A stretch of DNA of 64,000 nucleotides from Clostridia bacterium. GTDB lineage: Bacteria > Bacillota > Clostridia > Christensenellales > QALW01. This document shows, in pieces, positions 34,004 to 42,055 of the stretch. The stretch is taken from contig JAFVVO010000010.1 of NCBI GenBank assembly GCA_017502165.1, forward strand, positions 1 through 64,000, written 5' to 3'. A model generated the notes under the pieces. The model was not told the DNA's origin, searched no databases, and saw only the letters and a program-made list of their open reading frames with translations. Positions within the stretch are counted from its first letter, which is position 1. Each line of letters begins with the position of its first letter. Both the position numbers and the translations under genes were made by a program.

Positions 34004-34038
34004 TTTACTGTCAGATGGTTTTATGGTAGAATACCATA
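34004..34038 (+). promoter_or_regulatory. possible polC promoter with inverted repeat
   Basis: TTTACT (34004-34009), 17-base spacer, TAGAAT (34027-34032). The -10 lies inside the inverted repeat TATGGT-AGAAT-ACCATA (34022-34038). Confidence 0.5.
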
Positions 34039-34079
34039 TAGAATTTTATATTATTATAATAATTTTATGGGAGGCTAAA

Positions 34080-37000
34080 ATGGCAATCGTTCTTTCAGGC
34101 AAAGACTCAAAATTTAATAACGCTCTTACGGCGATGCTTTCTTCTGATTTGCTTGAAAGATTACAGTTCGATAAGGCGGTTATTTCCGACGACGGCAGTA
34201 TCTGGGAGCTGTACTTTTTGTCTTCCGGCACAGTTTCCGATGATGATAAGGCCCTATTGAATGAAACGCTGAAGAAAATCGTCCCCCCTACCGTTACCTA
34301 CGAGGTTGAATTCGTGCTTGCTGAAATTGATGACGACGAGGATATTTATGCATCTGTTCCCGTCCCTGAATTTGCCCCCGAGAGCTCTTCAGGTGAAGTT
34401 TTCGAGGAAGCTGATAATGAGATTAACGATAAAACCTCTGATGACATTGCTTCTGCCTATGAAAACGAAGCCCTTAATGATATTGATGCAAATAATGAGG
34501 ATACTTTAGAAGCCTCTGAAATTCCTGCAAGAATTCCCGAAATTCCCACAAGAGATGAAGACAGTGCTCAATCAGGTGATTCTGCCATGGAAAGATACCG
34601 CAAAAGAATGGAGGAGCTTTCAAAAAAGGCTGCCGAGCACGCGGTGGAATTTGAAAAGACTCACACTAAAAAGCCCTCTGTAAAAAAGAATACCAAGCTT
34701 TCAAAGGACGGCATTGCTCTTTTAGGCAAGGATTTTCCTTTAGATAAAATAACACCCATAAGTGAGCTTTCGGAGTTTTCTTCCTTTAACACCATTTGCG
34801 GTGACGTAATAAATAAGGAAACCAAAGAAATTATGGACGGTAAAAAGGTAATTTTAACCTTTGCTGTTACCGACTACACTTCCACAATATGCGGTAAGTT
34901 TTTCTTAAAGCCCGACGAGGTTGAGGCTTACTCGGAAATTTTAGACGGTCATATTGCCATTCGTTGCAAATGTATTGTTGACGATTACACCAACGAGCTT
35001 ACTATTAAGCCCTTTGATATTAAAGCCGTTGCAACGAAAAAGAAAACTGACGATGCACCTGAAAAACGAATTGAGATGCATCTTCATACAAAAATGAGCC
35101 AGATGGATGGTCTTGTTGACGCAAAGCAGCTGGTTAAGCTTATGCTCTCCTACGGTCACGATACCGTTGCCATTACCGACCACGGCGTTGTGCAAGCCTT
35201 TACCGATATGGAGGCCGCCCTTGCAAAGTGCGGTGCCAAGGATAAAATTAAGCTTATTTTCGGTGTTGAGGGATATCTTCTTGACGACGACCCCGTAATC
35301 AAGGATATTGACGAAAACGCTCGCCTTGCAGACGTTCCTTATTGCATTTTTTCACTTAGAACAACCGGTTCAAGTGCCCTGACGGCAAAAATATTCGAAA
35401 TAGGCGCTTGCATTTGGAAAAACGGTAAAATGCAAGATAAAACCTTTTATATGCACGCTAACCCACACGTGCATATTGACTCAAAAATCCTTGAGGAAGC
35501 AGGTGTAGCTCCTGAAACGCTTGCTTCTGCTCCCGAAATTGAGCAGGTGCTTAAGGCATTTAACGAATTCAGCGCAGGCTGTGTTCTGGTATCCCATTCG
35601 GCAGCCGCTTCCTTGCCCTTTTTATGCACGGCAGGAGAGGAAATCGGTATAGATTTCGACAGGCCCTGCATTGACACCTTACGTGTTTCGCGAGAGACAA
35701 TCCCCACCATAAAAAGCGGTAAGCTGAACAAGGTTTGCGATGCTCTCAACGTAAAAATGGGTGAACTGACCGATTCGTTAAAGGAGGCGGAGATTACCGC
35801 CGTAGTGCTTAACAAGCTGATCGATGTGCTTGCCCAAAAGAGCATTTTCACCGTTGGCGAATTAAACCGGCAGATGCAGACGGACAACGGCAACAGCTAT
35901 CACATAATTCTTTATGCAACCAACAAAACGGGTTTATTTAACCTTTATTCCTTGATAACCGAATCACATTTACATCATCTGCGCAGGAAGCGCCCCCAAA
36001 TGCCCCGTTCGGAAATTATCAAGCACCGCGAAGGCTTGCTGATTGCTTCCGCTTGCGAAGCAGGTGAGCTTTACCGTGCGTTGCTTCGCGGCGTTTCCGA
36101 CTTAAAACTTGAAAAGATTGCGGATTTTTACGATTACTTAGAAATTCAGCCTTTAGGCAACAACGATTTCCTTGTGCGTGAAGGCGCAGTACGTGATACC
36201 GAGCATTTAATCGAGCTTAACAAGAAAATTATTGCCTTGGGTGAAAAGCTTGGTAAGCCCGTTATTGCTACGGGTGACGTGCATTATCTTCAGCCTAACG
36301 ACGCTATTTTCCGTTCCATTATTCAATGTGCAGAGGGCTATCCCGAGGCAGACATTCAGGCGCCCTTATATTACCGAACTACTCAGGAAATGCTTGACGA
36401 GTTCTGGTACCTTGACGAAAAGAAGAGGCACGAAATCGTTATTGAAAACCCGCGGAAGATCGCTGATTTGTGCGAACCGATGGAATCCTTCCCGAGAGAC
36501 CATCTGTATACGCCCGAAATGGACAATGCTGAAAACGAGCTGAGAGAGATGTGTATGAAAAACGCATACGCTCTTTACGGCAATCCCTTGCCCGAAATAG
36601 TAGAAAAGCGTCTTAATAGAGAGCTTGAATCAATTATTTCAAACGGCTATGCGGTTTTATACTTAATTGCCCATAAGGTAGTTAAAAAATCCAACTCCGA
36701 CGGTTATTTCGTTGGTTCACGAGGAAGCGTTGGCTCCTCCTTTGCCGCTACCATGGCAAATATTACGGAGGTTAACCCGCTTCAGCCCCACTACGTTTGC
36801 CCCAACTGTAAGCATTCCGACTTTGACGTTGATAAAACAAAGTACGACTGCGGAATTGATATGCCCGTAAAGGCGTGTCCTAAATGCAATACGGAAATGA
36901 TGCGTCTTGGCTTCAATATTCCTTTTGAAGTGTTTATGGGCTTTGACGGTGACAAGGTTCCCGATATTGACCTTAACTTCTCAGGTGTTTATCAGCCTAA

Positions 37001-38393
37001 GGTGCACAAATACATTGAAGAGCTTTTCGGAAGCGAATACGTGTTCCGCGCAGGTACCATCGGCGGTGTTGCCGAAAAAACCGCCATCGGCTACACTAAA
37101 AAATTCGCAGAGGAATACGGTAAAGGCAGGTTGCGTTCGGCTGAAATTCAGCGTCTTGCAAGCGGCTGTATCGACGTTAAGCGCACAACCGGACAGCACG
37201 CAGGCGGCGTTGTTATAGTTCCCAAGCAGTATAACATCAACTGCTTTACGCCTCTTCAGTACCCTGCAAACGATCCTTCTCAGGGCATCATTACCACTCA
37301 CTTTACATTTAACTCCCTGCACGATACGTTGCTTAAGGCTGATATTTTAGGTCACGACGATCCCACGGTTATCCGTATGCTTGAGGATTTAACGGGGCTT
37401 GATACTAAAACTCAAGTTCCCCTTGACGACCCTAAGGTTATGAGTCTGTTCTTATCTCCCGAAGCGTTAGGTGTTACGGAGGAGGATATTGATTCTAAAA
37501 CGGGCACTCTCGGCTTGCCCGAGTTTGGTACGGGCTTTACGAGAAAAATGCTTGAGGAAGCAAAGCCCACCACTTTCTCGGATTTAGTAAAGATTTCAGG
37601 TCTTTCCCACGGAACAGACGTTTGGACGGGCAATGCCCAGGACCTTATTGCCAACGGCACCGCTACCATCAGTGAATGTATCTGTACGAGAGAGGATATT
37701 ATGAATACCCTTATTCAGAACGGCTGCGAATCCTTCCTTTCCTTCGATACTATGGAGAAGGTCCGCAAGGGCAAGGGTATTCCCGAAAAATATCTTGAGC
37801 ATATAAGGGAGCACAATATTCCCGAATGGTTTATTGAATCCTGCAATAAAATCAAGTATATGTTCCCCAAAGCGCACGCGGCGGCATACGTTACAACGGC
37901 GCTTCGCGTAGGCTGGTACAAGGTTTATAAGCCCCATCAGTATTACACCACCTACTTTACCGTTCGTGCCGACGATTTTGAGGTTGGCATCACCACCATG
38001 TCACCTAAGGAAATAAGAAACCGCATTGCGCAATACAAGGCTCAGCCCAGTATGACGCCTAAGGAAAAGGGCATCGTGGTTATGCTTGAAATGGTGCTTG
38101 AAATGAAAATGCGCGGCATCAACTTCACAAACATTGATATTTATGCTTCCGAAGCTACCGCCTTTACCATTACGGAGGATAACCTTATCCGTCCCCCGCT
38201 TAACGCAGTTCCCGGTCTTGGTGAAACGGCCGCCGAATCTATCGTGGAGGCAAGAAAAGCAGAGCCCTTCAAATCTCAGGACGATTTACTTATCCGCACC
38301 AAGCTTTCTTCGACCCTGCTTCACGCTCTTGAAGAATGCGGTTGCCTTAAAAATCTTCCCAAAAGTCAGCAAATAAGCTTGTTTGATTTTTAA
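34080..38393 (+). CDS. polC: DNA polymerase III alpha subunit, PolC type, with degenerate exonuclease site
   Basis: Replicative polymerase of low-GC Gram-positives, 1437 residues from ATG 34080 (after GGGAGG). Domains in order: N-terminal domain with an acidic linker (to about 200), OB fold (about 235-330), split PHP domain (MHLHTKMSQMDG at about 338, ITDHGVVQAF), inserted DEDD exonuclease fold (about 415-600), then PHP remainder, polymerase (GSRGSVGSSFAATMA, PDIDLNFSG with catalytic Asp residues, zinc motif CPNCKHSDF), the fingers (HAAAYVTTALRVGW) and a C-terminal clamp-binding QQISLFDF. The exonuclease fold is intact in outline, but ExoI D-x-E has become Ser425-Leu-Arg427, the ExoII Asp is Ser511 and the ExoIII H/D positions are changed (Glu569 for Asp). 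Proofreading by this domain is therefore doubtful. Confidence 0.95.
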   Translation: MAIVLSGKDSKFNNALTAMLSSDLLERLQFDKAVISDDGSIWELYFLSSGTVSDDDKALLNETLKKIVPPTVTYEVEFVLAEIDDDEDIYASVPVPEFAPESSSGEVFEEADNEINDKTSDDIASAYENEALNDIDANNEDTLEASEIPARIPEIPTRDEDSAQSGDSAMERYRKRMEELSKKAAEHAVEFEKTHTKKPSVKKNTKLSKDGIALLGKDFPLDKITPISELSEFSSFNTICGDVINKETKEIMDGKKVILTFAVTDYTSTICGKFFLKPDEVEAYSEILDGHIAIRCKCIVDDYTNELTIKPFDIKAVATKKKTDDAPEKRIEMHLHTKMSQMDGLVDAKQLVKLMLSYGHDTVAITDHGVVQAFTDMEAALAKCGAKDKIKLIFGVEGYLLDDDPVIKDIDENARLADVPYCIFSLRTTGSSALTAKIFEIGACIWKNGKMQDKTFYMHANPHVHIDSKILEEAGVAPETLASAPEIEQVLKAFNEFSAGCVLVSHSAAASLPFLCTAGEEIGIDFDRPCIDTLRVSRETIPTIKSGKLNKVCDALNVKMGELTDSLKEAEITAVVLNKLIDVLAQKSIFTVGELNRQMQTDNGNSYHIILYATNKTGLFNLYSLITESHLHHLRRKRPQMPRSEIIKHREGLLIASACEAGELYRALLRGVSDLKLEKIADFYDYLEIQPLGNNDFLVREGAVRDTEHLIELNKKIIALGEKLGKPVIATGDVHYLQPNDAIFRSIIQCAEGYPEADIQAPLYYRTTQEMLDEFWYLDEKKRHEIVIENPRKIADLCEPMESFPRDHLYTPEMDNAENELREMCMKNAYALYGNPLPEIVEKRLNRELESIISNGYAVLYLIAHKVVKKSNSDGYFVGSRGSVGSSFAATMANITEVNPLQPHYVCPNCKHSDFDVDKTKYDCGIDMPVKACPKCNTEMMRLGFNIPFEVFMGFDGDKVPDIDLNFSGVYQPKVHKYIEELFGSEYVFRAGTIGGVAEKTAIGYTKKFAEEYGKGRLRSAEIQRLASGCIDVKRTTGQHAGGVVIVPKQYNINCFTPLQYPANDPSQGIITTHFTFNSLHDTLLKADILGHDDPTVIRMLEDLTGLDTKTQVPLDDPKVMSLFLSPEALGVTEEDIDSKTGTLGLPEFGTGFTRKMLEEAKPTTFSDLVKISGLSHGTDVWTGNAQDLIANGTATISECICTREDIMNTLIQNGCESFLSFDTMEKVRKGKGIPEKYLEHIREHNIPEWFIESCNKIKYMFPKAHAAAYVTTALRVGWYKVYKPHQYYTTYFTVRADDFEVGITTMSPKEIRNRIAQYKAQPSMTPKEKGIVVMLEMVLEMKMRGINFTNIDIYASEATAFTITEDNLIRPPLNAVPGLGETAAESIVEARKAEPFKSQDDLLIRTKLSSTLLHALEECGCLKNLPKSQQISLFDF

Positions 38394-38525: not shown

Positions 38526-39440
38526 GTGTTTAAGATAAAGCGAGTTTTAGCAATACTGTTGCTGATTTCAATATTTTCTTTTTCATTTGTTATATCCGCC
38601 CAAGACGCAATGGCGCTTTCTCTGTCTTCCGCCTCAGGCAGTGTCGGTGAGCAAGTAACTCTTAACTTGATTTTAGAAAATAACTCAGGTGTTGCCGCTC
38701 TCTACGTTCAGCTTGATTACAATACAGAGCTTTTCACTCTTAAATCGGTTGACGATAAGGCGCTTTTAGAGGACTTTGCCTATGCCGATAACGCGGGCAG
38801 AGTTGTTCTTTCCTGGGAGCCTGCCACACATAACAACAGTCAGAGCGGTTCCTTGGCAACGCTTACCTTCGAAATTAATCAAAGCGTTACCGCCCTCGGC
38901 AAAAAGGAAATTACCTTAACTGCCATTGAAAACGGCATTATTGACAAAGATACCAACGTTGTTCCTTGTACACTTTCTTCAGGAAGCATAGAAATAGTTT
39001 CTCCCTTCCCTGAGGAAATTACCTCCGACGGCTTAACGGTAGATAATGAAAACGGCCGCATCAGTAAAATTGCCGCAGAAACAACGGCAGAAAGCTTCCT
39101 TCAAAAAATTGACCAGAACGAAAGTGTTAAGCTTTATACTGCGGACAATAAGGAAGTAAACAGCGCCGATTTTGTAGGCACGGGAATGATTCTTAAGCTT
39201 GTTGACGGTGAAACCGTTAAACGCCAATACGTTATTATCGTAACGGGTGACTGCTCCGGTGACGGGCAGGTTACCATTACGGATATGCTTTCAGTTAAAG
39301 GCTCTATTTTGAATAAAGTGGCTATCGTAAACGCATATAAGCTTGCGGCAGACACTAACGGTGACTCACTTGTAACCGTTACCGATTTTATTCAGATTAA
39401 AGCGCACGTTCTTGGCATAAGCTCTATAACCGCAAGATAG
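38526..39440 (+). CDS. secreted cohesin-dockerin protein
   Basis: Exported protein of about 300 residues. A signal peptide (VLAILLLISIFSFSFVISA) is followed by a cohesin-type beta-sandwich (about residues 30-158; SGSVGEQVTLNLILENNSG, AALYVQLDYN), a small linker domain common in gut dockerin proteins (about 165-238, VGTGMILKLVDG) and a type I-like dockerin with two calcium loops (DCSGDGQVTITDMLSVKGSIL and ADTNGDSLVTVTDFIQIKAH, in part). Having both cohesin and dockerin suits a bridging scaffold or adaptor. The start is uncertain: GTG 38526 sits inside the ribosome-binding site, while ATA at 38535 is ideally spaced. The next gene, 9 bases on, is a membrane-anchored cohesin protein. Confidence 0.85.
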   Translation: MFKIKRVLAILLLISIFSFSFVISAQDAMALSLSSASGSVGEQVTLNLILENNSGVAALYVQLDYNTELFTLKSVDDKALLEDFAYADNAGRVVLSWEPATHNNSQSGSLATLTFEINQSVTALGKKEITLTAIENGIIDKDTNVVPCTLSSGSIEIVSPFPEEITSDGLTVDNENGRISKIAAETTAESFLQKIDQNESVKLYTADNKEVNSADFVGTGMILKLVDGETVKRQYVIIVTGDCSGDGQVTITDMLSVKGSILNKVAIVNAYKLAADTNGDSLVTVTDFIQIKAHVLGISSITAR

Positions 39441-39449
39441 GAGAAATAT

Positions 39450-40706
39450 ATGAAGAAATTTATAACACTTTTAACAGCGTGTATTTTATGCGTAGTTGCT
39501 ATCCTGCCTCTTAGCGCATTTGCGGCAAGCTCAGCGGCAACTCTGACAGGTCCCGGTGTCGTTAGGGCCGGTGACACTATCACCCTTTCCTTTAACCTTG
39601 CAGGAAGCAATATTTACGCCGCTTCAGGTATACTTTCATTTGATAGCAATCAATTAACCTTAACGGGCACAAAGCAGACTATTTCTGCCCCTTGGATAGT
39701 TGAATTCAACGGAAATAATATGGTTGCTTACGACAATAATTTAACTGCCCCCATAAGTAACAGCAAATCCTTGTTTACCGTAACCTTCAAGGTAAAATCC
39801 GTTGCACCGGGCACGAATATAAAGGTACAGGTTAAAACAGTTAAAACCTCTGACGGAATAAAGGATACGGACTTAAACGATATTACCTATTCCGTTACCG
39901 TTGCCCAGCCCCTTTCCTCTGATGCTACACTTAAGGGCCTTACGGTTTCGGGAAGCACCTTAACCCCCGCATTCTCTGCAGGCACTACCACCTATAGCAT
40001 CGGCACCGTTCCCTTCTCTGTTTCAAAGCTTACGGTTTCAGCAAGCGCTAACCACGCGGGCGCAAAGGTTTCCGTTAGCGGAACCTCCTTAAGCGTAGGC
40101 GCTAACACGGTTACAATTACCGTTACCGCCGAAAACGGCAGTAAGAAAACTTATAAAATAAACGTCACGCGCCAGCAAGACCCCAACTATAAGGCGTCAT
40201 CAAATGCAAATTTAGGCACGCTTAACGTTTCATCAGGTCAGCTTTCCCCCGCATTTTCGCCTGATAAAACAGAGTATATCGTCTACGTGCCCTTTGAGGT
40301 TACTACCTTTGGTATTACCGGTACCGCTCAGGACAAAAAGGCTGTAAGCGTTACAAGTGCCACTATCCCTGAGCTTTCACTTGGTGAAAACAAAACCTCT
40401 CTCACCGTTACCGCTGAGGACGGCACAAAGAAAACATACACCGTAACGGTTATGCGTATGCCTCTTCTGAATGAGTCTTTACCTGAGGTAACCCCAACGC
40501 CCACTCCCACCGCTTCCCCGACAGATGCTCCCATTGAGCAGGAGCAGCCTGATGACAGAGCAATTATCTGGTCCTGGCAAACAATAGCTCTGCTGGTGCT
40601 TGCCTGCCTCTTAGGTGCGGTTATCTCTTGGGTAATAACGAGTCTTATTATCGGCAAGAGAAAGGCTTACCGCAATTATTCCGCGGAAAACGATTACGAT
40701 TTTTAA
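39450..40706 (+). CDS. membrane-anchored cohesin protein with two cadherin-like beta-sandwich domains
   Basis: Surface protein of 418 residues. A signal peptide (LLTACILCVVAILPLSAFA) is followed by a cohesin-like domain (about 28-150; GPGVVRAGDTITLSFNLAG), two repeats of the cadherin-like beta-sandwich fold seen in many surface proteins (about 155-245 and 252-342; DATLKGLTVSGSTLTPAF and NANLGTLNVSSGQLSPAF), a Pro/Thr-rich wall-spanning stretch (TPTPTPTASPTDAP) and a C-terminal membrane helix (about 372-395) with a basic tail. This is the layout of an anchoring scaffold. It is co-transcribed with the cohesin-dockerin gene, so a two-protein surface assembly is likely. Its ligand is unknown. Confidence 0.85.
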   Translation: MKKFITLLTACILCVVAILPLSAFAASSAATLTGPGVVRAGDTITLSFNLAGSNIYAASGILSFDSNQLTLTGTKQTISAPWIVEFNGNNMVAYDNNLTAPISNSKSLFTVTFKVKSVAPGTNIKVQVKTVKTSDGIKDTDLNDITYSVTVAQPLSSDATLKGLTVSGSTLTPAFSAGTTTYSIGTVPFSVSKLTVSASANHAGAKVSVSGTSLSVGANTVTITVTAENGSKKTYKINVTRQQDPNYKASSNANLGTLNVSSGQLSPAFSPDKTEYIVYVPFEVTTFGITGTAQDKKAVSVTSATIPELSLGENKTSLTVTAEDGTKKTYTVTVMRMPLLNESLPEVTPTPTPTASPTDAPIEQEQPDDRAIIWSWQTIALLVLACLLGAVISWVITSLIIGKRKAYRNYSAENDYDF

Positions 40707-40760: not shown

Positions 40761-41207
40761 TTAAATTACGGTGCAGATTATAAATAAAACTGCAAAGGCT
40801 AAAAGGAAAATTGCAACTGTTGCTAAAGCGGGAAGCGTTTTAACCTTGGGAACTGCAATGGGCTCCGTTGGTTTTGGCGGCTCTTCTTCGTTAATTTCCA
40901 CAACGCTTGCATCTTTTGCTTCTGCCCTATCGGTTACGGTTTCCTTTTCTGTAGAAAACACCGTTGAGCTTACGTTAAGCTGATTGCCGCAGGAAAAACA
41001 AAATCTGTTTTCTTCATTATTTACCGCACCGCAACGGGAGCATTTTTCGCCGAAGGCTTTTCCGCACATAATGCAATAGTCTGCGTCCTCGTCGTTAGCC
41101 TGACCGCAATGAGTGCAATATTTACTTGGTCTTGTCTCCGTACCGCAGGATACGCAAAATCTTTCTTCGTCACCGCAAACGCGGGAGCAATTTGCACAGA
41201 TTTTCAT
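40761..41207 (-). CDS. zinc-ribbon membrane protein
   Basis: A 148-residue protein with three or more zinc ribbons in the first 75 residues: CANCSRVCGDEERFCVSCG, CTHCGQANDEDADYCIMCG and CSRCGAVNNEENRFCFSCG. An acidic/Pro-rich linker and one C-terminal membrane helix (about 127-147, PALATVAIFLLAFAVLFIIC) follow. The N-terminal ribbons should face the cytoplasm. Function is unknown; such proteins are common in Clostridia. Its ATG overlaps the stop of the glycosylase gene by 4 bases. Confidence 0.85.
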   Translation of the reverse strand: MKICANCSRVCGDEERFCVSCGTETRPSKYCTHCGQANDEDADYCIMCGKAFGEKCSRCGAVNNEENRFCFSCGNQLNVSSTVFSTEKETVTDRAEAKDASVVEINEEEPPKPTEPIAVPKVKTLPALATVAIFLLAFAVLFIICTVI

Positions 41208-42055
41208 TTTTCATCTATTCCTTTTATTTTATTTTCTCTTGCATAATAGAAAAGATATTGTTGAGCTATGCCCGCATACTGCCCGAAAGCATTTTGGGCG
41301 TATTGCCAGATTTCTTCCTTGGTAGACGCTTTCTTTATAAACAAGGCTTCCATCACCTTTTTAATCCAAGTGTCTACCGGAAAAGCGTCAAGATAATTAA
41401 GACCGAACAAGCATACGCAATCTGCCACCTTAGGTCCCACGCCCTTCAGCTTGACAAGCTCCTCCTTGGCACAGAAATATCCTGCTGATTTAAGCTTTTC
41501 TTCATTGATTTTGCCATCAAGCATTGCCTTAACGGTTTCAACAAGATATTCGCTTCTGTATCCGCAGCCGAAAGAAGCAAACTGCTCCTTAGTTACGTCC
41601 TTCATCTCTTCCGCCGTAGGAAAGGCATAAAAGACGTTGCCGTCAAACTCAACGGGCTTACCGAAAGAAAAACAAATACGCTCAATTATAGCTTTAATTC
41701 TGCCGATATTATTATTTTGGGAAATAACAAAGGAAAATAACGCTTCCCAAAGCTCTTGCTGAAGTATTTTCATACCTTTGCCGTATTCTATGGCAAGCAT
41801 AAGGTTTTCTTCCTTGGGAAAGCTTTGGGCAATATGCTGATAATCTCTGTTTAAGTCGAAATAACTTGCAAAATCTTTTTCAAATGCCTGCTTTGTTATT
41901 CCATCAACAACAAGCACGTCATTATGCTTTTCTAAATATATAACCTTGTTTTTGGCAATGCCAAGATAACCGCTTTTATAGGGATTAAACCTGAAGCATT
42001 GACCGTTATCAAAGGTATTTTTCAAATCAAAATCTTTTATTTCTATTTCAAACAT
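41204..42055 (-). CDS. ogg: 8-oxoguanine DNA glycosylase (OGG1 type)
   Basis: Base-excision repair glycosylase/AP lyase of 283 residues. The N-terminal beta domain (FDLKNTFDNGQCFRFNPYKSG, in part) is the OGG/AlkA-type N-domain. The helix-hairpin-helix lies at LKGVGPKVADCVCLFGL (about residues 204-220), with the catalytic Lys expected inside this hairpin region (GPKVAD) and the catalytic Asp in FPVDTWIKKVM (about 226-236). NNNIGRIKAIIERIC (about 115-129) fits the damaged-base pocket. It repairs oxidised guanine; a useful activity beside a polymerase that may not proofread, but the closeness to polC may be chance. Confidence 0.9.
   Translation of the reverse strand: MFEIEIKDFDLKNTFDNGQCFRFNPYKSGYLGIAKNKVIYLEKHNDVLVVDGITKQAFEKDFASYFDLNRDYQHIAQSFPKEENLMLAIEYGKGMKILQQELWEALFSFVISQNNNIGRIKAIIERICFSFGKPVEFDGNVFYAFPTAEEMKDVTKEQFASFGCGYRSEYLVETVKAMLDGKINEEKLKSAGYFCAKEELVKLKGVGPKVADCVCLFGLNYLDAFPVDTWIKKVMEALFIKKASTKEEIWQYAQNAFGQYAGIAQQYLFYYARENKIKGIDEK

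Follow-up and report, generated by a model that had tools for sequence, protein, structure and literature searches.

The window, a stretch of 64,000 nucleotides, carries on its forward strand an unbroken open reading frame of 1456 aa (34023-38393) that encodes a full-length PolC. The frame matches the PolC profiles NF001688 (1562 bits) and TIGR01405 (1420 bits), together with the Pfam families DNA_pol3_alpha, PHP, finger, HHH_6 and, weakly, RNase_T (Table 1). Residues are numbered here from the first codon of the frame. An earlier, sequence-only reading had counted from M20, so that its S425, R427, S511 and E569 are our S444, R446, S530 and E588; the segment it singled out, 35349-35786, corresponds to residues 443-588. 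Directly 3' of polC, positions 38526-40706 encode two proteins, one combining cohesin and dockerin and the other cadherin-like with a membrane segment at its C-terminus, and an OGG1-type 8-oxoguanine glycosylase is encoded nearby (41204-42055). Below, G000 denotes the genome of the window, G001 its congener, and G004 a member of a sister genus in the same family; order, family (f) and genus labels are the group codes of this analysis. The genomes are mostly drafts, and claims of absence are based on high-quality genomes and on repeated observation.

Table 1. Features of polC in the window, with residue numbers counted from the start of the 1456-aa frame
Feature	Positions	Strand	Basis and remarks
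polC, probable true start M20 of the frame (1437 aa)	34080..38393	+	GGGAGG at 34069-34074 before ATG; NF001688, TIGR01405
PolC N-terminal (NTD) region	34080..34667	+	alignment to PolC NTD; fast evolving, G001 identity 41%
OB domain	34695..35057	+	alignment
PHP domain, first half; ligands H353, H355, D362, H387, E416 intact	35070..35294	+	G001 identity 82%
Degenerate DEDDh exonuclease insert, fold retained (predicted)	35313..35840	+	RNase_T 48.5 bits; AF2 model; Foldseek
ExoI motif YCIFSLRTTG; S444, R446 replace catalytic D, E	35340..35369	+	alignments
ExoII motif LVSHSAAASL; S530 replaces catalytic D	35586..35615	+	alignments
ExoIII motif LTDSLKE vs HHRAxxD; His position T583, Asp position E588	35766..35786	+	alignments
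PHP domain, second half; ligands H649, C678, D752, H754 intact	35895..36422	+	G001 identity 81%
Polymerase catalytic D981, D983 (PDIDLNF)	36963..36971	+	alignment
Polymerase catalytic D1107	37341..37343	+	alignment
C-terminal beta-clamp binding motif QISLF	38370..38384	+	sequence; QISLF in G001 too

In a MAFFT alignment with PolCs of the same order and other Clostridia, the catalytic D, E, D, H and D positions of the exonuclease (Exo) are occupied by S444, R446, S530, T583 and E588, and pairwise HMMER alignments to two solved exonuclease domains, 2p1j and 9qpc, independently put the same residues opposite the catalytic ones. E588 is a conservative D-to-E change; the other four are non-conservative. 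DEDHD stands at these positions in 167 of the 198 PolCs of the first set, compared with SRSTE in the window and SRTFE in G001. These alignments confirm the sequence-only reading that every proofreading catalytic position is replaced, five out of five; comparison with related PolCs, which it had named as a possible refutation, revealed no intact DEDDh set in the insert. These residues rule out a normal DEDDh exonuclease here, and the earlier conclusion that the domain is not a working proofreader of that type stands. The protein is not an Exo-less PolC either, as a 197-aa insert is present. As had been noted, the motifs for polymerase, PHP and clamp binding are all still there: the triad D981/D983/D1107 of a PolC-type core is intact, the nine PHP ligands form a complete HHDHEHCDH nonet, and QISLF is retained.

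The insert sits between PHP ligands E416 and H649 and is predicted to keep the DEDD fold. The AlphaFold2 model of residues 345-800, a structure prediction that had been suggested as a check, places this fold with confidence (mean pLDDT 92.0, pTM 0.84), and its best Foldseek matches are full PolC structures (9qrn/9qpc, TMq 0.86-0.87). Between the window and G001, identity is 81% in the polymerase, 81-82% in PHP and 53% in Exo. The resulting Exo/Pol divergence ratio of 2.55 exceeds that of pairs with live exonucleases (median 1.85, maximum 2.20; 32 within-family pairs of matched divergence). We attempted dN/dS for the window and G001, but synonymous sites were saturated and no omega value was obtained. 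In a second clade with dead exonucleases, in family f11, the inserts measure 175-191 aa and Exo omega is 0.12-0.46, under the neutral value of 1. Together, the Exo divergence, the predicted fold, and the f11 insert lengths and omega indicate a domain that is chemically dead by sequence, yet retained, for which we infer a scaffold role.

Timing and recurrence of the loss

The G001 PolC is 72% identical to that of the window over the aligned part and carries the same kind of replacements, while the exonuclease of G004 is fully live (DEDHD). This places the loss on the branch leading to the genus. In G004, polC occupies its canonical locus, adjoining rimP; in G000 and G001 it lies far from rimP, on other contigs, indicating that polC was also relocated on the genus branch. 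Inspection of the canonical rimP-nusA site in both G000 and G001 revealed no remnant of an old polC.

In a PolC tree of 127 rows, built with the Exo columns excluded, the most parsimonious history has seven switches in Exo state, roughly seven independent events within the order. Besides the window genus (G000, G001), these comprise the f11 clade, in which 20 genomes of seven genera have wholly degenerate exonucleases that trace to one event by parsimony; G014, with ExoI D to Y; G110; G135, with ExoII D to E, whose inactivity is the least certain; G010, in which the insert is deleted; and the second PolC of G273 (L247, contig C95), which has NVD at the polymerase aspartates and DEAHK in Exo and occurs alongside a normal PolC of that genome. 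Among 69 PolCs from elsewhere in the class, a sample picked towards close and odd cases and thus unsuited as a prevalence estimate, 62 are live, 3 are Exo-less, and 4 (f71, f74) have inserts unrecognisable as exonuclease. PHP inserts unlike any exonuclease occur in other orders at L402 and L404 (f74) and at L406 and L407 (f71), with lengths of 314-316 aa or 133-142 aa.

Candidate proofreaders

G000 encodes one PolC and one DnaE, as in a PolC plus DnaE1 system, which excludes, for the genome as assembled, the earlier suggestion of a second, specialised PolC. The DnaE (1166 aa) has an intact PHP nonet in both G000 and G001 and is 78% identical between the congeners; its length, C-terminal region and nonet suggest the DnaE1 type. 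MutS is also present. The sequence-only reading survives in its core, a dead exonuclease within a PolC that keeps its polymerase, PHP and clamp motifs; of the alternatives it offered, a second PolC fails for the assembled genome, and a separate DnaQ-type enzyme, as set out below, finds no support as a conserved partner.

We consider it probable that the sole PolC is a live polymerase whose exonuclease, dead but folded, was lost in the ancestor of the genus, with PHP editing and MutS maintaining fidelity. The metal-binding chemistry of Exo would have disappeared, with the fold kept, on the branch where polC left its usual operon, and the dead insert would persist for its structural role in the PHP loop. 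Editing in the 3'-5' direction would fall to the trinuclear PHP site of PolC, DnaE1, or both, backed by MutS mismatch repair. The window PolC contains the complete nonet of PHP-type proofreading polymerases, HHDHEH[C/H]DH, and the intact nonets of PolC and DnaE1 make PHP-based editing the best-fitting option. Among the PolCs examined, a broken PHP site (the common ligand-6 variant not counted as such) occurs in none of the 34 whose Exo is non-live, and the 10 in which the PHP site is broken all retain a live Exo; this mutual exclusion is suggestive only, as the rows are related and significance is not reached (Fisher p 0.37). Two PolCs of f63 (L386, L387) show the reverse of the window, a live Exo beside a badly broken PHP nonet. 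In Geobacillus kaustophilus PolC, one of the nine PHP ligands is missing and PHP exonuclease activity is absent, two observations that have been tied together (PMC5636811). Within the literature examined, we found no demonstration of PHP exonuclease activity in any PolC. An exonuclease from outside the RNase_T family might also act in trans, which counts against the PHP model, as does the one unconserved DEDDh protein of G000.

An unlikely alternative is that PolC itself has been demoted: DnaE1 would perform the main synthesis with its own PHP proofreading, and the PolC exonuclease would have decayed because little or only specialised synthesis was left to the enzyme. At its end, this path would remove the PolC polymerase altogether, the state of most of the order, in which only 119 of 396 sampled genomes have one. 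The full-length DnaE1 with its intact nonet and the departure of polC from its operon in the genus fit such a course. However, between the congeners the polymerase and PHP regions of PolC show no less conservation than DnaE, and the f11 PolCs with dead exonucleases keep a Pol omega of about 0.06.

Replacement of the dead domain in trans by a stand-alone DEDDh enzyme appears very improbable. The sole other RNase_T protein of G000 does have an intact DEDDh set, but it is a 171-aa protein on contig C39 (L001:1474-1989) encoded beside a transposase-like ORF. G001 yielded no RNase_T match other than PolC, G004 no second match, and several f11 genomes with dead exonucleases no RNase_T match at all. 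As G001 lacks a counterpart to the 171-aa protein, we reject for the genus, on the evidence of these RNase_T matches, a DnaQ partner that is both separate and conserved.

A mutator lineage, which would dispense with working 3'-5' proofreading and rely on nucleotide selection and mismatch repair, is very improbable. In Bacillus subtilis, a polC allele deficient in proofreading acts as a strong mutator (PMC11890065), so uncompensated loss is possible in principle; against it, the loss persists across the genus and across the 20-genome, seven-genus f11 clade, the PHP nonets are conserved, and MutS is kept. That the replaced residues are an assembly or sequencing artefact is barely credible, for even though the G000 assembly is in 44 contigs, the frame is open, similar losses occur in more than 20 further genomes of the order, and the idea is refuted by G001, whose PolC, 72% identical, shows the same losses.

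A polymerase-less counterpart of PolC

Beyond the sequence-only reading, the genus proved to share the loss, which recurs within the order and has its opposite, an exonuclease kept and a polymerase lost, in most of the order. Most of the 77 searched genomes that gave no full PolC match encode an ORF of 510-554 aa that matches a 10-row model end to end (L264:1474-3024 in G027, L266, L267, L281 and L283-L325). Its NTD and OB regions are homologous to those of PolC (hhalign probability 99.8%, E 9e-30, 288 columns) and are followed, in most, by a QxxLF-like motif and then by an intact DEDDh Exo, with no PHP domain and no polymerase. The gene lies at the polC locus, with ispG or rseP on one side and rimP on the other, in 14 of the 15 genomes examined, the fifteenth (G019) being unrecognised by the reference set. 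In a tree that left out the deadened copies of f16 and f19, the NTD-OB-Exo sequences group in a single clade (SH-aLRT 100) that is nested within the PolCs of the order, implying one change of state. None of the tested genomes that have PolC yielded the protein. In the f19 (L324, L325) and f16 (L326, L327) copies Exo is degenerate and the QxxLF motif is absent, so the protein appears there without polymerase and without exonuclease chemistry.

Most simply, the NTD-OB-Exo gene is a polC cut down to a proofreading subunit, which would presumably partner DnaE1. We give roughly even credence to a two-way uncoupling in this order, in which the polymerases of several lineages, their Exo dead but folded, would proofread via PHP and, in one large clade and by a single event, the NTD-OB-Exo protein would have become a clamp-binding proofreader for DnaE1. 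A search limited to open-licence literature returned no paper that deals with the PolC of this order or describes a truncated PolC reduced to its exonuclease.

Relation to known systems

The built-in exonuclease of PolC is the textbook proofreader of Firmicute replication. PolCs with a dead Exo are recurrent, long-lived exceptions to it, providing a natural test of how a genome is copied by a polymerase without its standard proofreader and natural material for asking whether the PolC PHP site proofreads. The mirror gene, in which Exo is kept and the polymerase lost, may be the more novel of the two, and suggests a route from a replicase to a separate proofreading subunit.

The window protein shares with canonical PolC (B. 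subtilis, G. kaustophilus; NF001688, TIGR01405) the order NTD-OB-PHP with inserted Exo-Pol-HhH, the clamp motif, the triad and the nonet, and differs in that all five DEDDh positions of the insert are replaced. Exo-less PolCs, which make up 6% of PolCs and come almost entirely from Clostridia and Negativicutes, likewise operate without DEDDh proofreading and are paired with DnaE1 (PMC3919608). There the insert is absent, whereas that of the window is full-length, predicted to be folded, and catalytically dead, a plausible intermediate towards the Exo-less state. Exo-less PolCs and shrunken or unrecognisable inserts are found in the present PolC set too. Given that Exo-less PolCs were already known, dead but fold-retaining PolC exonucleases represent a new step on a known road.

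With the PHP-proofreading DnaE1 of Mycobacterium tuberculosis (PMC5636811), the window PolC has in common the complete nine-residue ligand set, expected to hold three zinc ions; it differs as a PolC with a dead DEDD domain in its PHP loop, and its PHP activity is only predicted. According to a 2026 survey, it is the PHP domain that is inactivated in Pol III alpha, not the DnaQ proofreader (PMC12926913). Pol I orthologues and PolA2/APEX with an inactivated 3'-5' exonuclease similarly keep a vestigial DEDD-fold exonuclease (PMC12926913), but these are A-family repair or accessory enzymes, whereas the window protein is a Pol III alpha subunit.
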